Shown in pieces: positions 35,472 through 37,789 of a stretch of 39,348 nucleotides of DNA. This stretch comes from an uncultured Sporosarcina sp. (GTDB lineage: Bacteria > Bacillota > Bacilli > Bacillales_A > Planococcaceae). The notes beneath the pieces are model-generated. The model made no database searches, was not told the origin of the DNA, and saw only the letters and a program-made list of their open reading frames with translations. The stretch's first letter is position 1, and the number at the start of each line of letters is the position of its first letter. The position numbers and the translations under genes were made by a program. The stretch lies in assembly GCA_947644645.1 (NCBI GenBank), contig CANSAF010000022.1, positions 1-39,348 on the forward strand. Direction: 5' to 3'.

Positions 35472-36365
35472 ATGAACTTATTTTCATTCTTTAAGAAAAC
35501 CGAAAAAACTGGTAAAGAAAGTGCAATAGATTCAACAGAAATTATGAATACAGCGAATGCATCATCAAGCACCGAAGCAGTTGAAACTAAACTATCTTAT
35601 CATCCATCATGGAATGTTCCACAAGAACAAGAATATGTATTTCGTTTTCTAGCAAATGAACTAGAACCTTTAAAACCAAATCAGATTTCATTGTCAGGAA
35701 TTGAAATAGATGCTGATCCTGCAACGGATGGCTGGCTTGTAAAAGCATTTTTCCGCTCATCATTAGATCAAACAATTCAAATGGAAGAAGCGGAGTTACT
35801 CTTATTAGATGAAAACGAAGAAGTACTTGCAGCGCAACAATTTGATTTGAGTGAATTAGGTGATATACCTGGAAGAAGTGCAAGACCTTGGATATTTGTT
35901 TTTGATAAAGAAAATATTACTGCTGAAGAATTACCGAAAGAAAACTGGAAACTTGCGTTTAACGTTCAATCTATGATGCCACATCGACTCGATTTAGCAG
36001 CTTCATGGGAGGAAGGGCTAGCAGAAGAGCAAAAGAAAATGCTTGCTGAAACGGCAGAAAATTTACCGAAGCTAAATCCTCGTGAAATGAACATTACTGG
36101 TTTTCAAGTGAAAGCAGAGGAGGACGGTAGTATCGCAGCTTCTGTCTTTATTCGAAATGGTTATAGTAAAGAAATTAATATTGAACAATTACCGCTGGAA
36201 ATCATCGATGCAAATCAAGATGTTGTGGCACGCGGCACGTTCCAATTAGAAGATTTCTCGGTGAAAGCAAATACAACAAAACCGTGGACATTTATTTTCC
36301 CGAAATCATTGGTACAGAAGGAAAATGCTGACTTCTCACGTTGGGTAGCAAAAATCGTCCAATAA
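35472..36365 (+). CDS. slaP: Accessory Sec system S-layer assembly protein SlaP
   Basis: A 297-residue protein made of two copies of a beta-rich repeat (about 62-155 and 195-295). Each runs from a P(N/R)(Q/E)xxxxGxxxxA stretch through a valued strand set to a terminal RPWIFVFDK or KPWTFIFPK motif. The N-terminal 30 residues are charged and lack a signal peptide, so it is cytoplasmic. The duplicated domain matches the SLAP_DUP/SlaP family; in Bacillus anthracis SlaP works with SecA2 in secreting S-layer proteins. GGAGGAG (35458-35464) fixes the start. It is directly behind csaB. No secA2 or secY2 is in the window. Confidence 0.82.
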   Translation: MNLFSFFKKTEKTGKESAIDSTEIMNTANASSSTEAVETKLSYHPSWNVPQEQEYVFRFLANELEPLKPNQISLSGIEIDADPATDGWLVKAFFRSSLDQTIQMEEAELLLLDENEEVLAAQQFDLSELGDIPGRSARPWIFVFDKENITAEELPKENWKLAFNVQSMMPHRLDLAASWEEGLAEEQKKMLAETAENLPKLNPREMNITGFQVKAEEDGSIAASVFIRNGYSKEINIEQLPLEIIDANQDVVARGTFQLEDFSVKANTTKPWTFIFPKSLVQKENADFSRWVAKIVQ

Positions 36366-36371
36366 TATAAG

Positions 36372-36416
36372 AAACTGCTAAAGATAGGTGAAAACCAAAT
36401 CTTTGGCAGTTTTTTT
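36372..36416 (+). terminator. Rho-independent terminator after slaP
   Basis: A 14-bp stem pairs 36372-36385 with 36399-36412 (one wobble), followed by a T run. Confidence 0.9.
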
Positions 36417-36470
36417 GTGGAGCAGAACTTTTTTAGTTCTAGTGCGATTATATAAAGTAAAGTGCGAAGG

Positions 36471-36627
36471 ATTGCCTAAGGTTCGGGTGTAATTGCCTAA
36501 AGTATTAGCGTTATTGCCTAAAGTAAAGTATTAATTGCCTAAAGTACGAAGGATTGCCTAAGGTTCGGGTGTAATTGCCTAAAGTTCACGCGTAATTGCC
36601 TAAAGTAAAGCACGACTTCCCTAAAGT
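36471..36627. repeat. Array of 12-bp cores at 21-bp spacing
   Basis: Eight copies of ATTGCCTAAAGT (or AAGGT variants; the last is CTTCCCTAAAGT) start at 36471, 36492, 36513, 36534, 36553, 36574, 36595 and 36616. The spacing is 21 bp except one step of 19. Spacers of 9 bp differ (one is 7 bp), but tcgggtgta occurs twice as part of a 42-bp near-identical block (36462-36503 and 36544-36585). A weaker unit, ATTATATAAAGT, lies at 36447. The array sits between two convergent terminators and does not code for anything. Confidence 0.92.
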
Positions 36628-36663
36628 TCAACCTTCACAACACTCTCACTAAATCTCCCAAAT

Positions 36664-36702
36664 AAAAAAGCCTTAGAAAGTCATTATATAGACTTTCTAA
36701 GG
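36664..36702 (-). terminator. Rho-independent terminator of the LysM-NlpC/P60 gene
   Basis: A perfect 12-bp stem, CCTTAGAAAGTC (36671-36682) with GACTTTCTAAGG (36691-36702), with a T run on the minus strand. Confidence 0.9.
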
Positions 36703-36712
36703 ATTCTATTGA

Positions 36713-37789
36713 TTACATCGCATATAATCGTTTAAAACTATCAAAATGTTTTTTCCAATAACTTTCCGATAGACTCGAAACTTGTACACGGTCTCCGCCG
36801 GCATGGATGAATTTATTGTTACCGATGTAAATGCCTGCATGTGAAATGCCAGACGTGTATGTATTTGAGAAAAATACGATATCGCCAACTTGCGGCGTGT
36901 CTACTTCATAAGACCTGGCATGGAATCCGACTGTATTTGTACGAGGGACATCGACACCGTTTTTACTGTAAGCATAATAAAGGAATCCGCTGCAATCAAA
37001 GCCGTTTGGTGAAGATCCGCCCCATACATAAGGCGTTCCTTGTAAAGACATTGCTAGATTGACAATATTATTGACTTTTTCACTATTTGACGTAGTTGGC
37101 GGTGTTGAAACGACTGGTGGTGTCGGTTTTGATTCAACGACTCTGTTTTCAATTTTTAAAACTTGTCCGACGTAAATCATATGTGATTTTATATTGTTCC
37201 AGTTTTGTAATTGTGTGACTGTAATGCCATGTCTATGGGCAATGCCAGATAAAGTATCTCCTTTAACAACTGTATACGAACCTGTTGGCGCATTTGGTGC
37301 TGGTGTAGACGGCGTTGCAGGTGTTGAAGGTACTGAAGGTGTTGTCGTTGCTGGCGGTGTGCCGTTTATTTGTAATGTTTGCCCAGCAAAAATTAAGTGC
37401 CCTGTAATATTGTTTAAACGTTGAATTGCGCCGACTGTTGTTTGATGTTGCTGGGCAATTTTGGATAATGTGTCGCCAGATTTAACAGTATACGTGACAT
37501 TCATCGACGAAGGTGGTGCACTTGGTTTTGTTGTATTTGGTGCACTTGGTTTTGATTCTGCTTGCGTAGTAGATCCATTAAGCTTTAACACTTGTTTTGG
37601 ATAAATTGTATCTGACGTTAAGTTGTTCCATTTCTTTAAATCGGAAACTGATACTTGATTGTTAGAAGCAATTTTCCAAAGCGAATCACCATTTTGCACT
37701 GTGTAAGATGTGCTAGCTTCTGCATCGCCTGTGCCAACGAACAAAGCGAGAGAACTTGTCGCAACTACTGAAAAAGCGATTTTTTTCAT
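36713..37789 (-). CDS. LysM-NlpC/P60 D,L-endopeptidase (LytE/LytF-like)
   Basis: A 358-residue secreted protein: signal peptide (1-26), three LysM domains (28-71, 99-142 and 171-214) joined by Pro/Thr/Ser-rich linkers, and an NlpC/P60 domain (about 236-358) with Cys266 (FDCSGF), His317 (SHAGIYIG) and His329. It binds peptidoglycan through LysM and cuts stem peptides, a role in lateral wall growth or cell separation like B. subtilis LytE/LytF/CwlS. Unlike the other hydrolases in the window, it does not use SLH anchoring. AAAGGAGC (about 37799-37806) supports the ATG. It has its own terminator and probably its own promoter. Confidence 0.93.
   Translation of the reverse strand: MKKIAFSVVATSSLALFVGTGDAEASTSYTVQNGDSLWKIASNNQVSVSDLKKWNNLTSDTIYPKQVLKLNGSTTQAESKPSAPNTTKPSAPPSSMNVTYTVKSGDTLSKIAQQHQTTVGAIQRLNNITGHLIFAGQTLQINGTPPATTTPSVPSTPATPSTPAPNAPTGSYTVVKGDTLSGIAHRHGITVTQLQNWNNIKSHMIYVGQVLKIENRVVESKPTPPVVSTPPTTSNSEKVNNIVNLAMSLQGTPYVWGGSSPNGFDCSGFLYYAYSKNGVDVPRTNTVGFHARSYEVDTPQVGDIVFFSNTYTSGISHAGIYIGNNKFIHAGGDRVQVSSLSESYWKKHFDSFKRLYAM

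Follow-up and report, generated by a model that had tools for sequence, protein, structure and literature searches.

Helically phased arrays of species-specific 12-bp cores, dispersed beside gene ends in Sporosarcina and relatives, as candidate protein-binding sites

The window analysed here is a 39,348-nucleotide stretch of DNA from an uncultured Sporosarcina sp. (contig CANSAF010000022.1). Two convergent genes in it, slaP and a gene for a LysM and NlpC/P60 protein, are separated by a gap of 347 bases (36366-36712), and an array of phased cores spans window positions 36447-36627 within that gap. The best matches of slaP among named genomes are from Sporosarcina and Filibacter, at 67-68% identity. 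The features are:

35472..36365, + strand: slaP, accessory Sec system S-layer assembly protein, left convergent gene (TIGR04399, 405.9 bits, cut-off 250)
36373..36417, + strand: predicted intrinsic terminator of slaP with hairpin and T run, bounding the presumably untranscribed gap on the left (-23.3 kcal/mol, z -6.93)
36447..36458, + strand: degenerate first core ATTATATAAAGT, 3 mismatches, 24-bp step to the main array
36458..36610, + strand: 82-bp (four-unit) tandem duplication within the array (Tandem Repeats Finder, 1.9 copies, 93% match)
36471..36627, + strand: main array of 8 cores, consensus ATTGCCTAAAGT, steps of 21, 21, 21, 19, 21, 21 and 21 bp
36663..36702, - strand: predicted LysM-gene intrinsic terminator, bounding the presumably untranscribed gap on the right (terminator scan and folding, z -6.67)
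36713..37789, - strand: LysM and NlpC/P60 protein, right convergent gene (PF01476, 3 stretches; PF00877)

The cores start at 36471, 36492, 36513, 36534, 36553, 36574, 36595 and 36616. Seven have at most one mismatch to the consensus, the core at 36616 has two, and the most such cores (at most one mismatch) in any of 2000 shuffles of the gap was one. The original prediction, made from the letters of the window, of near-identical cores in a phased array thus holds. It had also given a spacing of 21 bp, which applies to six steps of the main array; the single 19-bp step, from 36534 to 36553, makes the spacing non-uniform (mean pitch ~20.7). Because of this step the helical phase differs between the cores on either side, so that the cores lie roughly on one face of the DNA and not all on the same face as had been claimed. 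The larger duplication, predicted to be 42 bp, has a period of 82 bp. An A/T-rich 11-nt inverted pair flanks the array and was equalled or bettered in 35 of 300 shuffles.

Both terminators named in the original prediction fold strongly, although the slaP terminator was not listed by our terminator scan of the window, which considered loops of 3-8 only. The array is free of overlapping ORFs of at least 60 aa. Two strong predicted terminators and this lack of ORFs agree with the claim that the array is outside every transcript, a status that is predicted for it, and the gap between the terminators would accordingly be silent. For both strands the array RNA folds less stably than its shuffles (z +2.31 and +2.75); given this and its position outside the predicted terminators, we take the array to act as DNA.

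The source genome (3,359,205 bases, 160 contigs) was screened by pattern searches, which strongly degenerate arrays would escape, and by examination of 13 stretches. At least eight arrays of the ATTGCCTAAAGT core were identified, the window array included, so that a genome-wide check of the core, which the original prediction had proposed, returned at least seven further arrays with the pitch kept. The window array is one of several and more than a simple tandem repeat. The arrays are on contigs C2 (two), C4, C9, C11, C22 (the window), C32 and C50, and between 4 and 15 cores are listed per array. Their steps measure 21 bp (47 times), 19 bp (7), 42 bp (2), 40 bp (1) and 24 bp (1); strict phasing is broken by the 19-bp steps, which recur within larger blocks of ~103 bp (C2, C50) or 82 bp. 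When the arrays were compared by BLAST with 1200 bases on each side, all matches fell inside the arrays or immediately next to them. According to a simple gene caller four arrays lie between convergent, three between co-directional and one between divergent genes, and seven of the eight start 47-146 bases from the 3' end of a gene. The sequence, read by eye, suggests that the C11 array lies between the terminator of one gene and the start of the next. By Pfam and TIGR04399 searches the 16 immediate neighbours are varied, with a lipoate ligase, a response regulator, cache/chemotaxis proteins, an oxidoreductase, an S-layer-type protein, transporters and others. A domain of a replication initiator, a recombinase or a transposase was found in none of them, nor was a RAYT transposase.

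Conservation is concentrated in the cores. The mean over the 12 core positions in 60 aligned source units is 1.51 bits per base, a value somewhat inflated since units were selected by core likeness, versus 0.31 for the spacer and 0.13 for its middle; Bhargavaea (54 units) and S. koreensis (44 units) display the same contrast. Dispersed arrays with at least four exact units were also compared within single genomes: core identity, inflated because cores were picked by likeness, is 0.98 in S. koreensis (14 arrays) and 0.955 in Bhargavaea (12 arrays), and spacer identity is 0.38-0.47. Identity in the 30 bases upstream is 0.86 in S. koreensis, whose element includes a leader. For the 12 distinct Bhargavaea arrays it is 0.345 versus 0.257 when shuffled (0.305 for the first 28 bases); core and pitch are kept despite little-related flanks. 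Selection on the cores relative to the spacers, as had been proposed, is supported by how much better cores are kept across dispersed arrays. The simple decaying repeat that had been set against it mostly fails, since the core is found elsewhere, the pitch is kept and cores are conserved over spacers.

Among the 68 genus genomes searched, 19 (source included) contain any match to the own core pair, and those other than the source genome have 1-3 scattered matches, the level of reversed controls. A check in relatives, also proposed earlier, therefore divides: the core is above control in none, and a similar pitch occurs with other cores. Core ATTGCCTAAAGT is species-specific among the sampled species and the 20-21-bp pitch is common to many unrelated cores across the family.

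The region 3' of slaP was compared in 23 named relatives by means of Tandem Repeats Finder. Repeats of 21 bp follow slaP in four (S. koreensis, a Sporosarcina MAG, Bhargavaea and Calidifontibacillus) and repeats of 52 bp in three (Sporosarcina NCCP-2716, an Alkalihalobacillus MAG and Schinkia); by eye, all seven differ from the window's sequence. The remaining 16 include L044, with a 104-bp repeat that is apparently another element, and three with a weak 41-bp signal, barely over shuffles. The 52-bp repeats of Alkalihalobacillus and Schinkia (L061 4744-5287, L063 4973-5120) contain inverted TGTCCGAA/TTCGGAC copies.

Other genomes carry their own cores. GTTATCTTTATCCG has 111 matches in Bhargavaea versus 14 in the control, many exactly 21 apart, and is at chance in the source genome (37 versus 41) and S. 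koreensis (16 versus 14); its paired form occurs 35 times in that Bhargavaea genome and is absent from seven congeners. The TGTCCGATA pair occurs 204 times in G060 (S. koreensis, to judge by identical coordinates) and 163 times in its sister genome G061, with controls of 0, and was not found in the remaining 66 genus genomes, source genome included. Single TGTCCGATACG matches number 336 in S. koreensis (control 72) and 85 in Bhargavaea (control 29), the latter scattered, among the matches listed. In 260 kb of S. koreensis we found 11 intergenic repeats with periods of 20, 21, 42 or 60, having different cores (GTGATCATAAACC, TGTCCGATA, GAACGCTCAAGCA and others); nine lie in six convergent gaps, a class of gap that accounts for 5,629 of the 29,800 intergenic bases. 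At least six additional array families can be distinguished in Bhargavaea by our own grouping. Further cores are CCGCTCAACC and CGTATCGAAACGTA in G018, CGCTCATAGAA in G033, GCGCGCAAAG in G055, TTCTATCCGTCA in G235 and TTATGTCC in G185. No such array was found in 200 kb sampled from G067, nearest by slaP among the relatives searched, nor in 100 kb each from G159 and G084. One co-directional Bhargavaea gap (L178, 3034-3430) contains three different 21-bp array families in series. Several gaps of Bhargavaea, G033, G018 and G134 hold another repeat, 118-121 bp long, which by eye looks rich in hairpins and is unrelated to the 21-bp arrays.

Intergenic repeats were surveyed in 13 genome samples (~2.3 Mb) by a lag scan with shuffles of 1,227 gaps of 60-1500 bases. 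The scan gave 65 repeats, of which four with CRISPR lags (66/67) were removed. Near-helical lags account for 43 of the 61 kept (nominal p ~7e-26), where near-helical stands for 20, 21, 40-42, 52, 53, 62, 63, 82-84 and 103-105, 15 of the 123 lags tested and picked post hoc, where the repeats are non-independent, as families recur and one Bhargavaea pair probably reflects a segment duplicated in the assembly, and where a few near-helical repeats are other elements. For lags of 15-60, 34 of 38 repeats are at 20, 21, 40-42, 52 or 53. The 43 are spread over 10 of the 13 samples, none being from G067, G159 or G084. They occur in 18 of 161 convergent, 23 of 823 co-directional and 2 of 243 divergent gaps, a convergent bias with p = 1.9e-5 versus co-directional and 2.8e-6 versus divergent gaps; gene calls were our own and imperfect (coding fraction 0.70-0.91). 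An automatic search located terminators on both sides of 4 of the 18 convergent arrays, on one side of 9 and on neither side of 5; it missed the slaP terminator because loops were limited to at most 9. The control, 200 kb of E. coli K-12 with 79 gaps, gave three repeats with lags of 92-100, all BIME-like by our own reading.

We tentatively favour, at somewhat below even probability, dispersed helically phased binding-site arrays for a putative sequence-specific protein, perhaps serving as a DNA barrier beside terminators. The protein-site reading is suggested by conserved cores, free spacers of fixed length, the two-turn pitch and little-related flanks, and a protein-binding array remains the best reading by likeness of its layout to protein sites. 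The predicted protein, probably oligomeric, would occupy the 12-bp cores on roughly one DNA face, much as plasmid initiators occupy iterons. The arrays would then work as DNA inside an untranscribed gap next to terminators, and their most plausible job, which is speculative, would be that of a local nucleoprotein barrier parting two transcription units and their supercoils. Several array sets, with cores of their own, are present in the species compared, and it is the two-turn pitch that stays constant in the lineage. Convergent placement agrees with a barrier against colliding transcription or supercoils and also with a tolerance of insertions that cost no promoter; selection against promoter insertions can by itself account for where the arrays lie.

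If proteins bind the arrays, Bacilli would have a kind of DNA-protein structure on the chromosome, located where the positive supercoils of facing genes would meet, in which sequence turns over between species and geometry does not. This would open bacterial insulation to direct tests, and likewise the coevolution between DNA-binding proteins and the sites they recognise. The wider version, in which the arrays are bacterial insulators, family-wide and fast-evolving two-turn operators in silent gaps, each set with its own putative protein, we regard as unlikely; if true, it would mean a geometry that is conserved with letters free to change.

A serious rival, about two-thirds as likely as the protein-site reading and on the doubtful side, is that of selfish repeats. 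Here a recombinase or transposase would recognise the cores and copy the arrays, which would survive in promoterless convergent gaps. Species-specific cores at many loci and the three families in series at L178 are what such copying would leave, as is the S. koreensis element, a leader plus usually five cores that is doubled at ~251 bp in five loci displayed. Units are moreover gained, lost and copied between sister genomes: L435 has an exact 21-bp unit duplication in G061, L434 has five units in G060 and three in G061, and the second array of L433 resembles its neighbour in G061 and not in G060, as if copied. Differences over nine orthologous pairs amount to 27/630 in cores, 65/839 in spacers and 184/2613 in flanks (core versus spacer p 0.007), and since these pairs include the misaligned L441/L191 and several spacer changes are whole-unit replacements, core and spacer differences are not reliably separable, although the totals lean towards slower change in cores. 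Inverted repeats of at least 10 nt are absent from the one koreensis element examined, however, and the window's 11-nt pair is at chance level; flanks are little related in both Bhargavaea and the source genome, the 16 genes beside source arrays contain no recombinase or transposase domain, and copying leaves the pitch common to unrelated families unexplained. Even if selfish, the arrays are a repeat class for which no description was found in the literature searched (open-licence PMC papers).

Gene cassettes, in the form of three paired Bhargavaea arrays ~1 kb apart, were rejected, since each of the three pairs proved to be a false duplication whose junction is marked by one N, and the recombination site suggested in the original prediction is not supported in a cassette form. 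These ~1-kb duplications holding arrays (L176, L179, L186) belong to the Bhargavaea cecembensis assembly.

The unit duplication in G061 and its array of three units where G060 has five could also come from ordinary slippage, in which tandem repeats happen to favour multiples of the helical turn and cores are remnants; the block duplications of 82 and 103 bp agree with this. Slippage is disfavoured, and we consider it improbable, because slippage and decay explain neither one core in eight arrays of a genome nor its far better conservation over a spacer of fixed length.

Array layout resembles that of iterons, which makes conceivable a third reading, chromosomal decoys in the manner of iteron-like incompatibility sites directed against plasmids or phages. 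Viral contigs with the koreensis core pair hold repeats at 8 of 14 loci (five with lags of 21-22), and those with the G018 core pair at 16 of 80 loci examined, among the matches listed; viral contigs with the own core pair, however, have no array in 22 loci. The window array is without match in 72,556 plasmid and 50,697 phage records, and three other arrays are without plasmid match, the koreensis one, which was also compared with phages, being without phage match as well. We judge this reading very improbable. Three viral-collection contigs (L270, L274, L277, the last at its contig end) contain 21-bp TGTCCGATA-type repeats with almost constant spacers, placed by the gene caller in small ORFs of 49-78 aa. 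Likewise very unlikely is an RNA element (3' stabiliser, sponge or attenuator), which would suit the position close to gene 3' ends in seven of eight source arrays and is opposed by an array outside both predicted terminators that folds worse than shuffles and has no credible Rfam family (single match, E 0.84, 19 bits versus a cut-off of 55).

Replication polarity was considered for the strands of the koreensis-type arrays, which crowd a 70-kb region of G061 C1 (~1.82-1.89 Mb, search coordinates). Among the 100 of 162 places listed, they largely switch strand near 1.845 Mb. Since the stretch of S. koreensis that maps to ~1.65 Mb already has a negative G+C skew, this switch is probably not the replication terminus, and the explanation was rejected; a search for a B. 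subtilis-type dif with up to 3 mismatches gave none. Intrinsic bending is likewise not supported. For 25 hand-typed consensus units 10.5-bp G+C periodicity had a combined p of 8e-5, and for 32 actual arrays the mean relative power of the helical harmonic was 1.99 (median 1.13), reached in none of 3000 permutations; this high power comes largely from arrays folded at 40-42 bp, for which the null is unsuitable, and in 20/21-bp arrays the helical share is 1.28 versus 1.19, 0.84 and 1.33 for harmonics 1, 3 and 4.

With regard to known systems, iteron repeat lengths are near two helical turns, and the RctB 12-mers of Vibrio cholerae ori2 have a spacing like that of the present arrays. Source, Bhargavaea and S. 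koreensis arrays also consist of direct repeats about two turns apart with a conserved core. PMC5395669 describes the RctB 12-mers as counterparts of iterons, and plasmid iterons and these 12-mers are, like the source arrays, several direct repeats, the known ones being initiator-bound. Source arrays differ in occurring at many chromosomal loci, with several unrelated cores per genome and placement at gene ends. The plasmid iterons suggested in the original prediction find no echo in BLAST, there being no match among the plasmid or phage records searched, in which these hosts may be sparsely sampled, and none of the 16 immediate neighbours of the eight source arrays has an initiator domain. 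REP and BIME elements are similarly dispersed and intergenic, common in convergent gaps and close to the 3' ends of genes, and REPs of E. coli are gyrase targets (PMC3733652); REPs are palindromic, whereas the present arrays are direct repeats of two-turn pitch without internal hairpins, as seen in the window array and in the one koreensis element. The heptamer G-rich repeats of Xanthomonas and Nostoc are also dispersed intergenic tandem arrays, but their units are 7 nt long and quadruplex-forming, and 16% lie between convergent genes in two xanthomonads (PMC4692102). Terminal inverted repeats, as in MITEs, are lacking in the koreensis element and represented in the window by the chance-level 11-nt pair.

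In layout the arrays are nearest to iterons and in genomic habit to REP/BIME, and we file them under neither because no replication gene is beside the source arrays, no plasmid or phage match was found and the unit is not palindromic. CRISPRs share a constant repeat with variable spacers of fixed length, but have longer repeats and spacers of ~30 bp; the present units are 20-21 bp with spacers of ~7-12 bp. A CRISPR-like array with units of 66-67 bp and repeat ATTTCAATCCACGCACCCATAAAGAGTGCGAC is present in the source genome on contig C2 at 57.8-60.9 kb (end of L117, start of L118).
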